In this document: positions 1,977 to 14,748 of the stretch, piece by piece
Position numbering within the stretch: the stretch's first letter is position 1
Layout of the letters: every line of letters starts with the position of its first letter
NCBI GenBank assembly: GCA_002685815.1
Contig: NYYM01000083.1
Coordinates: forward strand, 3,813-22,345
Reading direction: 5' to 3'
Length of the DNA stretch: 18,533 nucleotides
Origin: Dehalococcoidales bacterium
Lineage (GTDB): Bacteria; Chloroflexota; Dehalococcoidia; Dehalococcoidales; UBA2162
Made by a program: the position numbers and the translations under genes
Notes under the pieces: model-generated
The model's input: only the letters and a program-made list of their open reading frames with translations
Told to the model about the DNA's origin: nothing
Database searches by the model: none

Positions 1977-3884
1977 ATGGCACTAAACAGAAAGATAGCC
2001 TACATTGACTTAAGCAGCGGCAAGGTTGAGACCAAACCGATATCCATGGAGATGAGGAAGAAGTACCTGGGGGGCCGGGGGCTGGATGCTTATCTGCTTT
2101 ACAACAACACTAAAGCCGGAGTTGACCCATTGGGGCCGGACAACGTTTGCCTGGTCAGCGCCGGTATTCTGGTGGGGACATTAGCTTCGGCAACGGCCCG
2201 GACACACATCGCCGGGAAGTCACCTTTAACCGGTTATTTTGGTAGCACCAACATGGGGGGCTTTTTTGCTCCGGAGATGAGGTGGGCCGGATTCGACCAT
2301 TTAGTGATTAGAGGCAAAGCGGAGAAGCCGGTTTACCTCTGGATTCATAATGGTGAGATTGAGATAAGGGATGCCAAAGACATTTGGGGCAAGGGAGTAA
2401 GGGACACCCAGTCGATAATCCGGGAAGAGATGGGAGACCGGGAGATCAAGGTAATGACGATAGGGATAGCCGGGGAGAACCTGGTCAGGTACGCCAACGT
2501 CATGACCGAGATCAAGAATTCAGGGGGCAGGACGGGTATGGGGGCCTTACTCGGCTCCAAGAACCTGAAGGCCATTGCGGTGCGGGGCACCCTGGACATC
2601 AAGATAGAGCACCCGGTTGAAGCCCTGGAGTATAACAAGCAGATAATCAGCCAGATAACCTCAGCCAAGGTATCCCAGGAGCAGGGCCGGCTGGGCACGC
2701 TTTTCATCTGGGGGGCGACCAACAGCCAGGGACTGGTCAGGACGCGGAACTTCCAGTTGAACCAGATGGAGGACTCTGATGGTATTGAGCCGGAGACTTT
2801 TGAGGACTCCGCCTTTGGCATGACCGGTTGTTTTGGCTGCCAGGTACACTGTCGGGCCAAATACATCATACCCGACGGTGACTACAAAGGGACTTATGAC
2901 GAAGGACCGGAATACACCTCGATAGGGGCATTTGCCGCCGAGCCGGGCTGTACCGACCTGACCACTATCCTGACCGGTAATCATCTGGTCAACGACTATG
3001 GTATGGATACTCTTGAGATAGGCAGCATGATTGCCTGGGCGATGGAGCTATACGAGAAGGGGATTCTGACCGACAAGGACACCGATGGGCTGGACTTGAG
3101 TTTTGGCAATGAGAAAGCGGTTATCGAGATGATACACCGCATCGCTCACCGGGAAGGCCTGGGCGATATTCTGGCCGAGGGCCCCCTGCGGGCCGCCGAG
3201 AAGATAGGTAAAGACTCGATCAGATACCAGGTCCACGTCAAAGGGATGAGTAATCTCCACTCTGATGAGAGACCGACACCGGCCCTGGCCCTGGGTATTG
3301 CGACGGCCTCCCGGGGATCAGACCACCTGAGGAGCCGGCCGGCCATCGACCTGTACCACTTGCCGGAGGCGGTCTTAAGGCAGATATACAGCCAGCCGGT
3401 AGCCTATGAAGGGCCCTTGACCTCGGACTACACCGACTATGAAGGTAAAAGCTGGCAGGTCTTCTGGCAGGAGATGTGCTACATGGCGGTAGATTGCCTG
3501 GGTATCTGCAAGTACCACACCATCTTCCTGGGGCCTAACTTCCCCAACTTCGAAGAGTGGTCCAAGCTGCTTTATTACAATACGGGACTGGAGCTGACTC
3601 CCCTGGAGATCTGGACCATAGCGGAGAGGACTAACGATTTGGAGAGGATGTTCAACTTAAGAGAAGGGCTGGCCAGGAGTGACGACTGGCTGGTTGACGC
3701 TTACTTTGATGAGCCCACCAAGCTGGGTATTCCCCTTATCAGGGACCGGGTGATAGACCGGGACAAGTTTAAGCAGATGATCGATGAGTTTTATGCATTT
3801 CACGGTTGGGATGAGCAGGGGAAACTGAAACCGGAGACACTCAAGAGGCTGGGTTTGGATAAAGAACCCTCCCACCTGCTCTAA
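1977..3884 (+). CDS. aorB: Tungsten-containing aldehyde ferredoxin oxidoreductase (AorB-like)
   Basis: This is a full-length 635-residue AOR, close to the roughly 600-residue family norm. Enzymes of this family oxidise aldehydes to carboxylates at a tungsten-bispterin site and carry one 4Fe-4S cluster. The N-terminal domain has KYLGGRGLDAYLLY, ARTHIAGKSPLTGYFGSTNM and NSGGRTGMGALLGSKNLKAI. The cluster ligands are visible as C285, C288 and C292 in TGCFGCQVHC, plus C511 in LGICKY near the C-terminus, the same spacing as classic AOR enzymes. The neighbours are a four-cluster ferredoxin, an FAD subunit and a MoaD-like protein. This matches the AorABC system of Aromatoleum aromaticum, where AorB is the tungsten subunit, rather than the ferredoxin-only archaeal enzymes. 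The substrate cannot be read from the sequence. The PaaX-like regulator nearby hints at aromatic aldehydes such as phenylacetaldehyde. Confidence 0.93.
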   Translation: MALNRKIAYIDLSSGKVETKPISMEMRKKYLGGRGLDAYLLYNNTKAGVDPLGPDNVCLVSAGILVGTLASATARTHIAGKSPLTGYFGSTNMGGFFAPEMRWAGFDHLVIRGKAEKPVYLWIHNGEIEIRDAKDIWGKGVRDTQSIIREEMGDREIKVMTIGIAGENLVRYANVMTEIKNSGGRTGMGALLGSKNLKAIAVRGTLDIKIEHPVEALEYNKQIISQITSAKVSQEQGRLGTLFIWGATNSQGLVRTRNFQLNQMEDSDGIEPETFEDSAFGMTGCFGCQVHCRAKYIIPDGDYKGTYDEGPEYTSIGAFAAEPGCTDLTTILTGNHLVNDYGMDTLEIGSMIAWAMELYEKGILTDKDTDGLDLSFGNEKAVIEMIHRIAHREGLGDILAEGPLRAAEKIGKDSIRYQVHVKGMSNLHSDERPTPALALGIATASRGSDHLRSRPAIDLYHLPEAVLRQIYSQPVAYEGPLTSDYTDYEGKSWQVFWQEMCYMAVDCLGICKYHTIFLGPNFPNFEEWSKLLYYNTGLELTPLEIWTIAERTNDLERMFNLREGLARSDDWLVDAYFDEPTKLGIPLIRDRVIDRDKFKQMIDEFYAFHGWDEQGKLKPETLKRLGLDKEPSHLL

Positions 3885-3911
3885 AAACCGGACAAGAAAT
3901 GGAGACAGTTT

Positions 3912-4406
3912 ATGAGAAAGATGCTTGTGACAGATTACGAGAAATGCACCGGGTGCCGTTTATGCGAACTGGTCTGCTCGGTCAAACATGAAGGAGTCAG
4001 CAATCCGGCCCGTTCCCGGATAAACGTCACCAAATGGGAGACGAAGGGTATCATGGTGCCCATGGTCTGCAGCCAGTGTGAAGATGCTCCCTGCATGGCC
4101 GTCTGCCCCACCAACGCCCGTATCCGGGAAAGTGAACTGGGTACGGTAACCGTCAACTACGACCGCTGCATCGGCTGCAAGACCTGCGTGGTGGCCTGTC
4201 CCTTTGGAGCGATTAACTTTGACCCCATCGACCACAAGGTAATCAGTTGTGACCTGTGCGAGGGCGACCCCCAGTGTGCCCGGTTCTGCGAGACCGGGGC
4301 GATACGCTACGCAGAGGCCAGTGACGCCAACAAGATGAGGCAGAGAGAAGCCGCCGAGAAGCTCTACGAGTCACTGCAGAAATTGGACGGAGCCGGAGTC
4401 AGTTAG
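3912..4406 (+). CDS. aorA: Ferredoxin-like subunit with four 4Fe-4S sites (AorA-like)
   Basis: This 164-residue protein has 16 cysteines in four groups: CTGCRLCELVC (C12-C22), CSQCEDAPCMAVC (C53-C65), CIGCKTCVVAC (C86-C96) and CDLCEGDPQCARFC (C113-C126). This is the pattern of polyferredoxin electron-transfer subunits such as AorA, HycB and CooF types. It would move electrons from the AOR tungsten site to the FAD subunit. No signal peptide or membrane segment is seen, so it is cytoplasmic. It starts 27 nt after the AOR stop with GGAGA as ribosome site. A helical charged tail (residues 138-158) follows the last cluster. It is paralogous to the ferredoxin at 15261-15734. Confidence 0.92.
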   Translation: MRKMLVTDYEKCTGCRLCELVCSVKHEGVSNPARSRINVTKWETKGIMVPMVCSQCEDAPCMAVCPTNARIRESELGTVTVNYDRCIGCKTCVVACPFGAINFDPIDHKVISCDLCEGDPQCARFCETGAIRYAEASDANKMRQREAAEKLYESLQKLDGAGVS

Positions 4407-4437
4407 ACACACCCCCTGGTCCTGAGAGGTAATCACC

Positions 4438-5706
4438 ATGGTAGTCATATTAGGCAATGGAGTTGCCGGTAATACTGCTGCTTCCACTATCCGCCACCTG
4501 GACAGCCGGATAGAGATAACTCTGATCTCAGCCGAGACCTACCCTGAGTATACCGCCTGCGCCCTGCCTCATTACCTGGCCGGTGAGTTTGAGAGGCAGC
4601 GGCTCTTTTTGAAGAGTGAGGAAGACTACCCGGCCGAAGGGATCAAGACCATCTTCGGCCGGACTGTCAGCGGTATTGACCCGGAAAAGAAGCAGGTGTT
4701 GCTGGGAGACGAGAGCCTTTCGTATGACAAACTGATTATGGCTACCGGCAGCCGCCCCCTGGTCCCCCCCATTCCGGGAGTTGATCTTGAGGGGGTTTTC
4801 AGCCTCAAGTCACCCGGCGATGCCGACCGCATACTGGAGGGCCTGGGCCAGACGGCCGTGGTGGTCGGTTCCGGACCCATCGGAGTAGAGACAGCCATAT
4901 CCCTGAAGAAGCAGGGAGATCAGGTCTACCTGATCGAGTTGTTAGAGCGGATAATGCCCAAGATATTTGATGAAGAGGCCGCTTCACTGGTGGCGGCCAT
5001 CCTGGAAGAAAAGGGTATCAGGGTCTTAACGGCCGAGAAGCTGGTCCAGATTAACGGCCAAGAGCGGGTAGAAGGCATCGTCACTGACAAACAGCAGATA
5101 GAATGCGACCAGGTGATCATGAGTGTCGGCGTGAGGTCCAATGTAGAGCTGGCCCGAGAAGCCGGGATAGAGGTGGGCTCCCTGGGAGGTATCGTGGTCA
5201 GCCGCCGCATGGAGACCAGTCTGGAGGGGATTTTCGCCTGCGGTGATTGCGTCCAGAGCCGGGACATGGCCAATGGTCAGGAGATGTTAAGCCCTCTCTG
5301 GCACAACGCCAAAAGGCAGGGCATCATAGCCGGCTACAACTGCCTGGGAATCGATAAAATATACCCCGGCTCGGAAAGCATCACCAGCCTGGATGTCTAC
5401 GGCACTCAGGCCGTTTCCTTCGGCAGCATTGCCGCCGGTAACGAGGCTGAGGACGTCGAGGTGATCGAGAAGTACTCCGGAGACAACTACTACCGTCTGG
5501 TTATCTCCAAAGGGCATCTGATCGGAGCCCAGTCCATCGGTAATGCCCAAGACATGGGGGCTTTACTCTATGTACTACTGAAGAGGGAAAACCTGGACAA
5601 GATTAAAAGCATGATTGAGCAAAGAATTACCCCCCTGAATCTCCGTCACCACCGGGTGGGCCGCTACATTACCCCATCGGCCATTGAGGCAGCCGGTGAG
5701 CGTTAA
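4438..5706 (+). CDS. aorC: FAD-dependent NAD(P) oxidoreductase subunit (AorC-like)
   Basis: This 422-residue flavoprotein of the pyridine nucleotide-disulfide oxidoreductase superfamily has an FAD-binding GNGVAG at residues 6-11. It also has MATGSRPLVPPIPG near residue 100, a NAD(P)-binding GSGPIG around 144-149, and the second FAD motif IFACGDC at about 265-271. The class of NADH oxidases and CoA-disulfide reductases has a catalytic Cys near residue 43. Here the matching segment is YTACALPHYLAGEF, so a cysteine is present, although a redox role is not proven. Beside an AOR and a four-cluster ferredoxin it fits the 45-kDa AorC subunit that passes electrons to NAD+. It overlaps the next gene, which indicates coupling. 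Confidence 0.9.
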   Translation: MVVILGNGVAGNTAASTIRHLDSRIEITLISAETYPEYTACALPHYLAGEFERQRLFLKSEEDYPAEGIKTIFGRTVSGIDPEKKQVLLGDESLSYDKLIMATGSRPLVPPIPGVDLEGVFSLKSPGDADRILEGLGQTAVVVGSGPIGVETAISLKKQGDQVYLIELLERIMPKIFDEEAASLVAAILEEKGIRVLTAEKLVQINGQERVEGIVTDKQQIECDQVIMSVGVRSNVELAREAGIEVGSLGGIVVSRRMETSLEGIFACGDCVQSRDMANGQEMLSPLWHNAKRQGIIAGYNCLGIDKIYPGSESITSLDVYGTQAVSFGSIAAGNEAEDVEVIEKYSGDNYYRLVISKGHLIGAQSIGNAQDMGALLYVLLKRENLDKIKSMIEQRITPLNLRHHRVGRYITPSAIEAAGER

Positions 5707-5968
5707 GGTAAACATCGCCCCCTTCTTAACTCACCTGACAGCTGACCACGAGTTGGTTGAGGTAAACGGCGGCACCGTGGGCCAGTGTCTTGACGGTCTG
5801 GTGGAGGAATATCCCGGCATCAGGGAATGGCTCTTTGCCAAAAACGGCAAACTCAACAACGTGATCGAAATCTACGTCAACGCCGAAAGCTCCTATCCCG
5901 ATGAACTAACTAAGCCGGTTAATGACGGTGACGAACTCCAGATAGTAATCATGATCGTCGGCGGATAA
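5696..5968 (+). CDS. MoaD/ThiS-like sulfur carrier protein
   Basis: This 90-residue ubiquitin-fold protein ends in the exposed GG (IVIMIVGG) that MoaD and ThiS proteins need for adenylation and thiocarboxylation. Internal segments such as GGTVGQCLDGLVEEYPGI and VNDGDELQIV are typical of MoaD. MoaD supplies the dithiolene sulfur of molybdopterin, the cofactor of the AOR in the same operon, so a dedicated carrier for the tungsten enzyme is likely. AOR clusters of this type often carry such a gene. The start chosen is GTG 5696, with GAGG at 5686-5689. It overlaps the end of the upstream flavoprotein gene by 11 nt. A TTG at 5684 is possible but has no ribosome site. Confidence 0.85.
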   Translation: MSVKVNIAPFLTHLTADHELVEVNGGTVGQCLDGLVEEYPGIREWLFAKNGKLNNVIEIYVNAESSYPDELTKPVNDGDELQIVIMIVGG

Positions 5969-11192: not shown

Positions 11193-12539
11193 CTATCTGT
11201 AGACTCCGTATTCTTTGGCGGCTTCCATCATCGCCCGTATGTTGTCGGCCGGCGCCTTATCGACTGATGCGCCAGTTGACAATACATAGCCACCACCAGG
11301 AGCGCAGTCTTCGATGAGCTTACGGCAGTATTCTTTGACATCTGAGGCGGTGCCGGTGGTCAGTAACGAAGTGGGTACGTTACCTGAAATGCAGCATTTG
11401 TCACCCAGGGCCTTTTTGGCAGCGGCCATGTCTGTCTGATCAAAACGCCACATCACCGTCCTTTTCGGGAATTCGTTGACCGTCTCCAGACGCCCGGCGT
11501 AGCTGCCCTCGGCAAACAGAGAAGGAATAATGCCCTCGTCAATCAGGGCGAGGCAGACTTTTCTCAGAGAGGGCCAGTAGAAGGTTTCGAATTGCCTGGC
11601 AGACATAAAGCCGTCAGCCCCTTTGTGCAGGGGGAAAAAGACCGTTACGGCTCGGCCGGCATTGGCCGAGGCTATCGCGGCCTCAATGGTCAGGTTTGCT
11701 ATTACCTCCAGAGCTTCATGAAGTTTCTCCGGCTGGCGGTACATGTCCATTATTACGCCCTGGGTACCCCTGAGAGTATCTCCGATTGTGTCAAAGGGTG
11801 CCTTGGCCATGCCCCCGTCTCTGAGGGACGGTACGCCGGCTTCCCTGGCTTCTCTGTTACACTCGGAGACGACCGCCTGCCATTTGGGAAATTCCTTACC
11901 GATTTCAATCAACGTCTGCAAGGTGGCCTGGACATCCGGTCGAGAGAAGGGGATGAAATATCCGGCAGGAAGCTCAATAATGTTGGTGAAAGCCTGAAGA
12001 TGCCGGAAAGACTCGAATAGTCCAAAGATGCGGGGCATGTAGGTCCTCATCCAGAAATCGGAGGGGTTCTTCATCAGGGCATCGTATTCATCGGCCTTCA
12101 TATACTCGCCTTCGACAAACTGGTGTCCGGTAGCATCGTCAGGCAGACCGTGGCCGGGCCATGTATACAGCTTGTAATCGAGAAGGTCGTATATCCTTCC
12201 CGGCATGATCGCCCCAGGTCCGGAATAGGTGTCCATTTCAAAGTCATTGAGGAACTTCTTCCAGGCCCGGCCTAGTTCATCGTAGTCGTACATAACCGTC
12301 TTAAGATCGGAGCCGGCATGGTAGGCCGGTATGACGCCGTAAGCGAGTTGCAGCGGTACCCGATCGGGCTCTTTCATCTGGTAGGCATCAGCCAGCCGCT
12401 GTTGTCTCGCTTTGTAGGACTGCTCAGCCTCCGGACTAATGAAGTTGATTTCAGTTGGCGCCAGCCATCGCTTGAATCTCTCGGCCCGCTTTTCGTCCGG
12501 GGTCAACTCTGCCCATTTTCCATCCTCTGCCATTGTCAT
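11193..12539 (-). CDS. Uroporphyrinogen decarboxylase-fold protein, likely corrinoid methyltransferase
   Basis: This 448-residue protein belongs to the URO-D superfamily, seen in FSRPDVQATLQTLIEIGKEF, RGTQGVIMDMYRQPEKLHEA, HKGADGFMSARQFETFYWP and CISGNVPTSLLTTGTASDVKEY, ending PADNIRAMMEAAKEYG. It is about 100 residues longer than HemE. It has an extra N-terminal region (ISPEAEQSYKARQQRLADAY), as in the anaerobic MtaA/CmuA-like methyltransferases. These move methyl groups between corrinoid proteins and coenzymes or demethylate methoxy compounds. No corrinoid protein is next to it, so the substrate is open, and it is probably not a heme enzyme. The ATG at 12539 has AGAGGT eight nt upstream. 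Confidence 0.85.
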   Translation of the reverse strand: MTMAEDGKWAELTPDEKRAERFKRWLAPTEINFISPEAEQSYKARQQRLADAYQMKEPDRVPLQLAYGVIPAYHAGSDLKTVMYDYDELGRAWKKFLNDFEMDTYSGPGAIMPGRIYDLLDYKLYTWPGHGLPDDATGHQFVEGEYMKADEYDALMKNPSDFWMRTYMPRIFGLFESFRHLQAFTNIIELPAGYFIPFSRPDVQATLQTLIEIGKEFPKWQAVVSECNREAREAGVPSLRDGGMAKAPFDTIGDTLRGTQGVIMDMYRQPEKLHEALEVIANLTIEAAIASANAGRAVTVFFPLHKGADGFMSARQFETFYWPSLRKVCLALIDEGIIPSLFAEGSYAGRLETVNEFPKRTVMWRFDQTDMAAAKKALGDKCCISGNVPTSLLTTGTASDVKEYCRKLIEDCAPGGGYVLSTGASVDKAPADNIRAMMEAAKEYGVYR

Positions 12540-12798: not shown

Positions 12799-13473
12799 AT
12801 GTTCGCCGTCGTTAAATGTCAAATATCGAAAAGCACACAAGGACGAGCAGAAGAAACTGGATGCCTTTGCTCCAAAGGTTGGAGACGTGGCCCCGGATTT
12901 CGAACTTGGGGACGCAAACGGGCAGAATTCTGTTCGCCTCTCTGACTTCCATGTTAAGAAACCGGTTGCGCTGAACTTCGGCAGTTACACCTGACCGCCT
13001 TTCGTCTGGGGGACGGTGAGTCTCCATGACCTCTACGAACAGCATCATGACCAGGTCCAATTCCTCCTCGTCTACGTGCGAGAAGCCCACCCAATCGATG
13101 GGTGGTGGCTGGGAGGAAAAGGGTCAGGGCGGTTAACGAAACGGATACTGAAAAGGGAATGTCCGGTAAGATGGCCGAGGCCGACATGCCCAAAGCTTCC
13201 ATTGATCTTTATGACGCCAAGACAATCGAGGAAAGACAGTCGGCGGCCGGGCGTTGCTCTACAGAGCTAAACCACGATACCCCCACTTATGTTGACGAGA
13301 TGGACGATAGAGTGAGCAAGGCCTATGCCGGCTGGCCCACCCGTCTTTACCTTATCGGAGTTGATGGGAAAGTAGCTTATGCCGGTGGGCTGGGACCGTT
13401 TGGATACAAACCGGAGGAACTGGGAGAAGCCATCGAGAAATACCTGGCACCGGTGAAGGCTGCTATCGGTTAG
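12799..13473 (+). pseudogene. Iodothyronine deiodinase-like selenoprotein with in-frame UGA; frame broken in this sequence
   Basis: One frame reads APKVGDVAPDFELGDANG, then VALNFGSYT, a UGA at 12992-12994 and PPFV. The segment FGSYT-U-PPF is the active-site motif of deiodinases (FGSCT-U-PPF in animals), in a thioredoxin fold. The same frame continues to VYVREAHPIDGW, also a deiodinase signature. The C-terminal half, TIEERQSAAGRC to VDEMDDRVSKAYAGWPTRLY and GGLGPFGYKPEEL, lies in another frame ending at 13473. One base appears to be missing between about 13100 and 13180. The N-terminus is also unclear: ATG 12799 has AAAGGA eight nt upstream but is out of frame, and ATG 12816 would need one extra base to give MSN-YRKAHKDE. 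It is either a decaying gene or an active one with two sequence errors. The intact protein would be about 220 residues. The function of bacterial deiodinase homologues is unknown. Confidence 0.78.
12992..13015 (+). promoter_or_regulatory. Sec UGA codon with possible bacterial SECIS hairpin
   Basis: Eight nt after the UGA (12992-12994), CGTC (13003-13006) and GACG (13012-13015) form a perfect 4-bp stem around the loop TGGGG. Bacterial SECIS elements lie just after the UGA and show Gs in a short apical loop, so the placement fits. The stem is short and the outer pairing weak. Confidence 0.4.
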
Positions 13474-13540: not shown

Positions 13541-13735
13541 TCACGGCCGGGGGATGATGAAGGCCCGGCTGGCGATTCGCAGTACCCTGTCCTCGCTGTC
13601 CGAGTAACGGGCTTTTATGGACAGCATCACTTTTGCGGCCACAGTTTCCTGCCAGAACCAATCGGAAAGCGTTTGGCTGGAAGCATATTTCTGCCTTAGC
13701 TGGGCTGTGATGCCCTCAAAATAGTAGGCTTTCAA
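13541..13735 (-). CDS. Small hypothetical protein coupled to the GrdB/PrdB-like selenoprotein gene
   Basis: This 64-codon ORF starts at TTG 13735-13733. Its start overlaps the stop codon of the selenoprotein gene (ATTTGAAA), so it would be translated by coupling. The protein reads KAYYFEGITAQLRQKY and ends RIASRAFIIPRP. I recognise no family. It has no signal peptide, membrane segment or cysteine. The composition is protein-like, with amphipathic helices likely. It could be a small partner of the reductase. The rare start codon and short length keep confidence moderate. Confidence 0.5.
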   Translation of the reverse strand: MKAYYFEGITAQLRQKYASSQTLSDWFWQETVAAKVMLSIKARYSDSEDRVLRIASRAFIIPRP

Positions 13736-14748
13736 ATCGTCGGCAGCGAGTTTAAGGAGACCAGTTGCCGGCGCATCATCCCGTGGACTCTGGGGGCATC
13801 CTCGCCAAGAAATGAATAAATAAAATCGCCAATCGCATCAATTCCCAGCCCACTGGAGCCTACTGTGGTCCGTCCTCGTCTCTCGACAGATATGTCGTAC
13901 CAGGGACGCAGGGTTACGATCTCTCTTTTGAAAGCCTCGAACAGTTGGTCGGCTTCGTCGAGTTCGTCTTTATCCTGGGCGAAGTGCACCGGACAGGCTA
14001 GGGCCACGACTTCGTTAGCCGATTCAGGCACATCTTCGGGGAAGTCTTCAATGAACGAGCCCTCGGGAGCTTCAAGAAGTTTCAGCGCCGCCAGGAGTAC
14101 CCGTTTCTGAAATATTGGGTCATCGGGTATGCCAAGAGGGCGTCCCAGCTCAAAAGGCACCCAAAGAGCTCTGGGAGGTCTGATGCGTTCCGTATGCAGC
14201 CGGACCAGACTAATGGAGGTTGTCGGTACTCCTTCTTCTTTAAAGAAATGGGCCAGTCCACCAACGGCGCGCGTGCAATTGGCTCAGACAGGCAGCAGGA
14301 CGATGGCGTCAACTTTGTCTTTTTTCAGCAGCCTGGCAACGCTGCGGGCCTGTTCTTCAAGATCCATCGGATCATGGGCTCCCATAAAGGAGTAGTGGGA
14401 ATCAGCGATACTGCCGATCACCCCCTCTTCATCTAACTCCCTGAGCCGATCCACCGGGAAGATGACGTTCAGGTCCTGCTGGAATCCGCTGCGATCAAAA
14501 TTAATTGATATATGTGTCATGACCAGTTCGTCAGCTTTTATGTCTCCCGGAATAATCGGGTAGCAGTCCGCGGTATCACGGGTAAAGGGGCGGTCGCCCC
14601 GCCGGTGAATTCCGGCGACTGAGACAAGCGCTACCCGCCTCTGACTCAAAGGTGCTCCTTCCGCCCAGGGGTCGGTTTCAAAGGTTGGACATTCGGTATC
14701 CTCGAAGTGTTTTCTTTCTGATTCAGTTAGTTTTTCAAGACGGACCAT
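13732..14748 (-). CDS. GrdB/PrdB-like reductase selenoprotein with in-frame UGA (Sec)
   Basis: Read through the UGA at 14286-14284, this is one 338-residue protein. Without readthrough it would appear as two unrelated ORFs. Residues around the UGA are DAIVLLPV-U155-ANC158-TRAVGGLAHF, giving a UxxC redox motif inside a conserved fold. The flanks RRVALVSVAGIHRRGDRPFT, THISINFDR, DLNVIFPVDRLRELDEEGVIGS and FELGRPLGIPDDPIFQKRVL match the selenoprotein B family of glycine, sarcosine, betaine and D-proline reductases. In these enzymes the selenol cleaves C-N bonds reductively. No GrdA, GrdC/D, GrdE or PrdA gene is adjacent, so the substrate is unknown. The ATG at 14748 has GGAGG ten nt upstream. 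The stop overlaps the small ORF at 13541-13735. The same frame stays open on both sides of the UGA with family-like sequence, which argues against a chance mutation. Confidence 0.88.
14260..14286 (-). promoter_or_regulatory. Sec UGA codon with possible stem-loop
   Basis: On the minus strand the UGA (14286-14284) is followed by GCCAAT (14283-14278), a 12-nt loop and GTTGGT (14265-14260). Together these pair over 6 bp with two G-U pairs. This could be part of a SECIS element, but the loop is large and GC-rich and the shape is not typical. Confidence 0.3.

Follow-up and report, generated by a model that had tools for sequence, protein, structure and literature searches.

The locus at positions 12,799 to 13,473 (forward strand) of an 18,533-nucleotide stretch of Dehalococcoidales DNA (contig NYYM01000083.1 of GenBank assembly GCA_002685815.1; hereafter, the window) is a real, broken-as-assembled new member of the known bacterial deiodinase-like family. 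It is probably a frame-broken copy of a bacterial PF00837 gene for a selenium-dependent reductase that has a deiodinase-type active site and a resolving cysteine of its own, and that would act in dehalogenation or peroxide reduction. A UGA codon at the active site, a structure signal found family-wide, selenocysteine machinery in the same assembly, and a strongly conserved deiodinase active site, all seen in the sequence, point to this reading. The assembly that contains the window measures 1.30 Mb in 96 contigs and is 72% complete. The gene has the following parts.

12799..13473, forward strand: deiodinase-like selenoprotein gene with two frame breaks (motifs, PF00837 match, frame analysis)
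12800..13156, forward strand: N half, open if translation continues past the UGA; PF00837, 65.1 bits (scanned stretch 12800-13267)
12992..12994, forward strand: UGA, selenocysteine position of FGSYT-U-PPF; UGA in 79 of 80 related loci
13009..13025, forward strand: candidate bacterial selenocysteine insertion sequence (SECIS), 6-bp stem GGGGAC/GTCTCC, loop GGTGA (fold analysis)
13153..13473, forward strand: C half in a different frame, with TAG stop; PF00837, 43.2 bits (scanned stretch 13102-13470); cysteine of helix alphaD in AAGRC

Family identity and the two frame breaks

A first-pass annotation of the letters alone had read this locus as a bacterial deiodinase-like gene, and the observation was confirmed, with a match far above chance. 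The motifs that it named (FGSYT-U-PPF, REAHPIDGW, VDEMDD, AYAGWPTRLY and GGLGP) are all present where it placed them, spread over two frames, and UGA indeed occupies the selenocysteine position of the first. T4_deiodinase (PF00837; cut-off 27 bits), not an ordinary redoxin family without deiodinase features, was the best match of both halves, with E values of 7.6e-18 for the N half and 3.7e-11 for the C half taken alone and no joining of frames needed. The N half also matched AhpC-TSA at 27.0 bits (cut-off 26) and, below its cut-off of 26.6, Redoxin at 25.5 bits; T4_deiodinase was the sole family match of the C half. A search of the PDB with the family profile ranked DIO3 (7.4e-33) and DIO2 (1.8e-28) before a thioredoxin-family protein (1.8e-6), and the predicted model of a relative showed a thioredoxin fold most like that of the deiodinases, with DIO3 and DIO2 the best matches by fold. 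Profile scores and PDB ranking together rule out a plain redoxin and support the deiodinase-like interpretation, with the caveat that, of the residues to which hormone binding in DIO3 has been ascribed, only a part is conserved.

Related loci were collected by a scan of genome contigs, whose pattern was displayed with C at the selenocysteine position, which bears on how the scan weighs UGA; 409 stretches were confirmed, and the best 80 were kept as the sample. Most come from Chloroflexota, with others from Planctomycetota, Latescibacterota, Poribacteria and Neomarinimicrobiota, and a few from metagenome-assembled genomes (MAGs) labelled Desulfobacterales, Deltaproteobacteria, Gammaproteobacteria, Actinomycetes, Coriobacteriia and Gemmatimonadota. 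Conservation was read from an alignment of 86 rows (83 distinct; L031 partial), in which UGA codons elsewhere in the gene (L066, L099) were counted as Cys.

The N half is read in frame 12800+3n and the C half in frame 13102+3n, up to the TAG at 13471-13473. The probable start, ATG 12799, belongs to the frame of the C half and not to that of the N half, in which inspection of the window sequence found no ATG, GTG or TTG before 12887. The frame must therefore change twice, with a net shift of zero, and because of this the halves were scored separately. The breaks fall at about 12813-12823 and 13150-13160, with roughly 330 bases between them. A programmed frameshift is rejected because 78 of the 80 relatives have a single open frame except for the UGA, and because the two changes in the window are opposite in sense. 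Besides the window's own product, the closest match of the C half among those listed (best 120 of 504 proteins) was P0002 (73%). Read in one frame, this protein agrees with the window at 34 of 38 residues of the N-half frame ahead of the second break and at 84 of 100 behind it, so this part of the gene is present unbroken in a close relative.

Whether the window copy itself is a pseudogene, a question that concerns the copy and not the function of the family, is a close call that we place slightly on the negative side. Two breaks in one gene speak for decay, as do the lack of any ambiguous base in the window and the open reading frames of the neighbouring genes that were scanned. The 123-residue C-half product, moreover, represents a 90%-identity cluster of five sequences, possibly not independent. 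In a tree made by a quick method, the window groups with L097, L067, L101, L064 and L065 (Shimodaira-Hasegawa-like approximate likelihood ratio test, 95), and its branch is the longest (0.68) of that small clade. Against decay, 46 of the 49 conserved columns (at least 90% of rows) are kept, and the ratio of nonsynonymous to synonymous divergence from L067 is 0.257/1.68, or about 0.15, with the synonymous term near saturation; these values show purifying selection until recently and fit a gene kept functional until lately. The hairpin behind the UGA is identical to that of L067, the net shift is zero, ambiguous bases do occur in other loci of the assembly (17 in L002), and breaks also occur in two of the 80 related loci (L118, L121), as is common in draft assemblies. 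A gene functional until lately is compatible with recent decay and with assembly error alike. That the broken copy may yield no protein weighs against the reading of a reductase for the window copy.

Reading of the UGA as selenocysteine

UGA stands at the active site of 79 of the 80 related loci, and none of the 80 has a Cys form at that position. By motif pattern, 73 have an open frame, every one with UGA; of the remaining seven, five are open with UGA and have slightly different motifs, L118 has the UGA followed by a frame change, and L121 is without the active-site stretch. When the class was surveyed, 37 of 294 genomes gave a PF00837 match, 29 of them above the cut-off, and the over-cut-off match contains a UGA in 28 of these 29. 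The exception, L039 of genome G002, has Thr at the selenocysteine place; this genome is 54% complete and gave no SelA hit. Five genomes with a UGA-bearing match (G018, G096, G137, G158 and G225) had no SelA at E 1e-60 and are probably incomplete assemblies. Within the window's own family, the gene was found in 5 of 12 genomes, the window's included.

The loop of the candidate SECIS lies 23 bases past the U of the UGA, the same distance as in L067. Across 73 relatives, the 42 bases after the UGA had a mean folding z of -1.08 (standard error 0.12) against synonymous shuffles, compared with -0.24 to 0.21 at 13 positions elsewhere in these genes, and a first fold test on 26 members had given a mean z of -0.84. 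In 62 of 74 cases, the loop of the strongest simple hairpin has a G as its first or second base. The fold signal behind the UGA is thus as expected of a bacterial SECIS. The assembly also holds SelA (558 bits), SelB (352.5 bits including a second stretch) and the selenocysteine tRNA (73.4 bits) within 5.7 kb of one contig (C29), as well as SelD, which has a UGA of its own. The in-frame UGA, the SECIS-like hairpin and SelA, SelB, SelC and SelD that define a bacterial selenoprotein are accordingly all present at the sequence level, the hairpin by family average.

Several results on folding weigh against a SECIS in the window. The energy of its own hairpin is unremarkable (z of -0.35, and -0.89 against synonymous shuffles, of which 43 of 200 fold as well), two near relatives run opposite to the signal (L023, z 1.41; L030, z 0.49), and the signal is a family average from a shuffle control uncorrected for kinship. 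A search of Rfam at the gathering threshold gave no match in the window, which was not taken as a verdict on the SECIS. If the UGA were a plain stop, as translation table 11 has it, the gene would be a chance or decayed redoxin fragment. This explanation has next to no probability: a UGA at one site in 79 of 80 loci, conserved on both sides and never replaced by Cys, together with a structure signal only behind that codon and selenocysteine machinery in the assembly, leads us to reject it.

L030 and L066, which are the same gene in one MAG, contain a second in-frame UGA where DGWW has its second Trp (DGW-U-LGK), 38 residues past the selenocysteine. It occurs in one of the 73 open frames and may be an error, a mutation or a second selenocysteine.

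Active site, resolving cysteine and possible substrates

The animal deiodinases DIO1-3 (4tr3, 9h48) share with the window gene FGSxTUPPF, EAHPxDGW, Arg225, Arg260 and GP, and also the fold, as seen for a relative of this gene; identity is 57 of 160 aligned residues to DIO3 and 51 of 145 to DIO2. The selenocysteine codon lies in SxTU before helix alpha1, and the window keeps the network of Tyr197, Glu200, His202, Trp207 and Arg225, which does not vary among the 86 rows. Unlike the deiodinases, the window gene has its SECIS candidate inside the gene, lacks equivalents of His219, Arg275, Cys168 and Cys239, and has a cysteine in helix alphaD instead. The sites of Cys168 and Cys239 are Tyr and Thr in the window, and mostly Phe/Tyr and Ile/Met/Val among the rows. 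The losses of His219 and Arg275 tell against the reading of a reductase with a deiodinase-type active site. His219 of DIO3 (His174 of DIO1) is replaced by Pro in 82 of 86 rows, with His in 4, and by Ala in the window; human DIO1 H174A was reported to be active (PMC9141512). Arg275 (Lys in DIO2) is not conserved: the window has Leu, and the 86 rows include 39 with Leu, 12 with Pro and 9 with Arg.

The alphaD cysteine occupies the same column in 82 of 86 rows and sits one residue on in L124, L125 and L131 (85 of 86 together); in 57 rows it is the only Cys besides selenocysteine. L075, which lacks it and has no Cys at all besides selenocysteine, goes against a general resolving role. Among outlying rows with a UPPF motif, it is present in L036 and L040 and absent in L002. 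Relatives of the same class that carry UPPC instead (L038, L041, L043 and L044; L037, whose frame ends early, and the other UPPC-type genes of the class survey were left out) also match PF00837 above cut-off and have UGA at the same place. They differ in having their own Cys three residues past the selenocysteine, in lacking the Trp of DGW, Arg260, GP and the alphaD Cys, and in having Phe or Met at its position. Over the 86 rows and the three outlying ones, the alphaD Cys thus occurs in 87 of 89, against 0 of 4 UPPC-type rows (P 5e-6, uncorrected for kinship). In the atypical 2-Cys peroxidases (PtGPX5, Tpx), which form a separate family, the resolving Cys of PtGPX5 sits in the helix that corresponds to alphaD (PMC7506546). 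The nucleophile of the window family differs in being a selenocysteine with a deiodinase loop.

The assembly holds a second deiodinase-like gene, L002 (G000:C47:10569-12860), which reads FGSFT-U-PPF and is open except for the UGA, with ambiguous bases. It has a lipoprotein-like N-terminus by eye and is without DGW and Arg260; its place in the tree, on a long branch, is unsure.

A catalytic cycle may be proposed from these features. SelB would read the UGA as selenocysteine, with the hairpin as the SECIS. The selenolate, aided by the network of Ser-x-Thr-selenocysteine, Tyr, Glu, His, Trp and Arg, would attack a small halogenated or peroxidic substrate lodged under the DGW loop to give Sec-X, and the alphaD cysteine would then form a selenenyl sulfide with the selenocysteine. 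A thiol of the thioredoxin or glutaredoxin type would in turn reduce this Sec-S-Cys intermediate. Such a cycle would combine a deiodinase-like first half-reaction with a second one like that of the atypical 2-Cys peroxidases (GPX5/Tpx type). Iodothyronines seem unlikely as the physiological substrate.

The protein might instead be, in effect, a selenium peroxiredoxin, with hydrogen peroxide or an organic hydroperoxide as substrate and its deiodinase likeness due to common descent only. We regard this as possible, and lean against it. The insertion with EAHPxDGW, which to our knowledge peroxiredoxins lack, shows no variation at E, A, H and W across the 86 rows. Peroxiredoxins have the motif PxxxT/SxxC, of which the window keeps Ser at -3 from the nucleophile and has Leu in place of Pro at -7, and an AhpC-TSA score of 27.0 bits against 65.1 for PF00837 places the protein outside the AhpC/TSA family. 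Redox genes are not general neighbours, no family occurring in more than 5 of the 120 neighbour proteins scanned. Another possibility, which appears rather doubtful, is that the protein is a true reductive dehalogenase that acts on small (natural, aromatic) organohalides and accompanies the reductive dehalogenases without using cobalamin. The deiodinase catalytic network and the DGW loop are kept, and the suggestion of the first-pass annotation that the lineage is a dehalogenating one gains support from three reductive dehalogenase proteins in the same assembly (L141, L142 and L143), which scored 162.1, 232.4 and 226.0 bits with TIGR02486 of NCBIfam (cut-off 160.35) and fell below the NCBIfam cut-off for QueG; PF13486 gave three weak matches, one barely above cut-off. 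These proteins make exposure of the host lineage to organohalides plausible, no more. Against a dehalogenase, His219 and Arg275 are lost, and the family is also found in Planctomycetota, Latescibacterota, Poribacteria and other groups, none of which we know as dehalogenators. Genomes of the same order assigned to f2 and listed in the class survey, probably Dehalococcoides and Dehalogenimonas, had no PF00837 match. A selenium-dependent reductase with its own resolving Cys, of either substrate class, is the reading that we prefer.

Deiodinases are familiar as enzymes acting on thyroid hormone, a compound that one would not expect free-living bacteria to produce; even so, relatives that share the active site are found in bacteria of many phyla. 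Bacterial deiodinase-like selenoproteins were described from the Sargasso Sea in 2005, with four selenocysteine and apparently six cysteine sequences, and a redox function was suggested (PMC1088965); they belong to PF00837, like the window gene, and use selenocysteine with a bacterial SECIS, as is predicted for it. Reviews of 2022 and 2026 give the bacterial motif as UxxC, with no function stated in the relevant passages (PMC9312934, PMC13188914), whereas the window clade has UPPF or UPPY and the alphaD Cys. A marine survey described a deiodinase-like fusion with an EF-hand domain (PMC9402790), and two reviews mention deiodinase activity of gut bacteria, with no gene named in the parts concerned (PMC12521424, PMC9101513). 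The earlier statement that no physiological role is established for bacterial members agrees with these sources, whose passages on PF00837 genes report no demonstrated function. A search that covered no preprints and few subscription papers found no literature on Chloroflexota members.

Neighbouring genes

The genes on either side of the locus include a second predicted selenoprotein.

11193..12539, reverse strand: uroporphyrinogen decarboxylase/MtaA-like protein; relative L101 likewise has a PF01208 protein nearby
13732..14748, reverse strand: PrdB/GrdB-like protein with in-frame UGA at 14284-14286 (PV-U-ANC), second predicted selenoprotein

The PrdB/GrdB-like neighbour is the only PF07355 match of the assembly. 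It resembles D-proline reductase PrdB and GrdB in having UxxC at the UGA and in scoring 102.5 bits with TIGR04483 and 42.8 bits with PF07355 (part before the UGA); the TIGR04483 score, however, is far under the PrdB cut-off of 300. By tblastn, such a gene occurs in 6 of the 80 related loci, at 59-75% identity in L101 (twice), L067 and L064, and at 31-33% in L102, L055 and L071, which lie outside the window's clade. Fourteen genomes contain 15 PF07355 matches in total, which sets the expectation for the 763 kb of loci at about 0.3 genes; six or more has P of about 1e-6 by a rough Poisson estimate that is uncorrected for kinship and uses a sample including the six genomes chosen for having the neighbour. 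Among SelA-bearing genomes, PF07355 was found in 21 of 23 with PF00837 and 64 of 174 without it (Fisher 5e-7, uncorrected for kinship), from hand-compiled lists in which the PF00837 set contains both UPPF- and UPPC-type genes and the PF07355 set both long GrdB and short PrdB-like proteins; within this sample, only G000 and G253 have the two genes as direct neighbours.

The alphaD cysteine and the recurrent PrdB/GrdB-like neighbour do not appear in the literature passages on the family and are thus apparently new. Together with the absence of that cysteine in UPPC-type relatives, they offer handles on the reaction catalysed and on the origin of deiodinases. The two selenoproteins could form parts of one selenium-based reductive pathway that dehalogenates or cleaves a small organic substrate and that, in relatives of the Dehalococcoidia, operates alongside cobalamin reductive dehalogenases or takes their place. 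We consider this idea improbable.

No general operon partner was found in the neighbour scan, which covered 120 of the 143 nearest proteins (23 were omitted by hand, and one was exchanged for the glutaredoxin gene of L065). Individual loci show other contexts: L064 and L067 have Crp/Fnr regulators upstream, L065 and L102 a glutaredoxin, and L101 a CMD protein. Farther off in the window, two aldehyde ferredoxin oxidoreductase genes lie at 3-701 and 1977-5968; after the second come genes for a ferredoxin-type protein, for a pyridine nucleotide oxidoreductase and, by eye, for a small MoaD-like protein.
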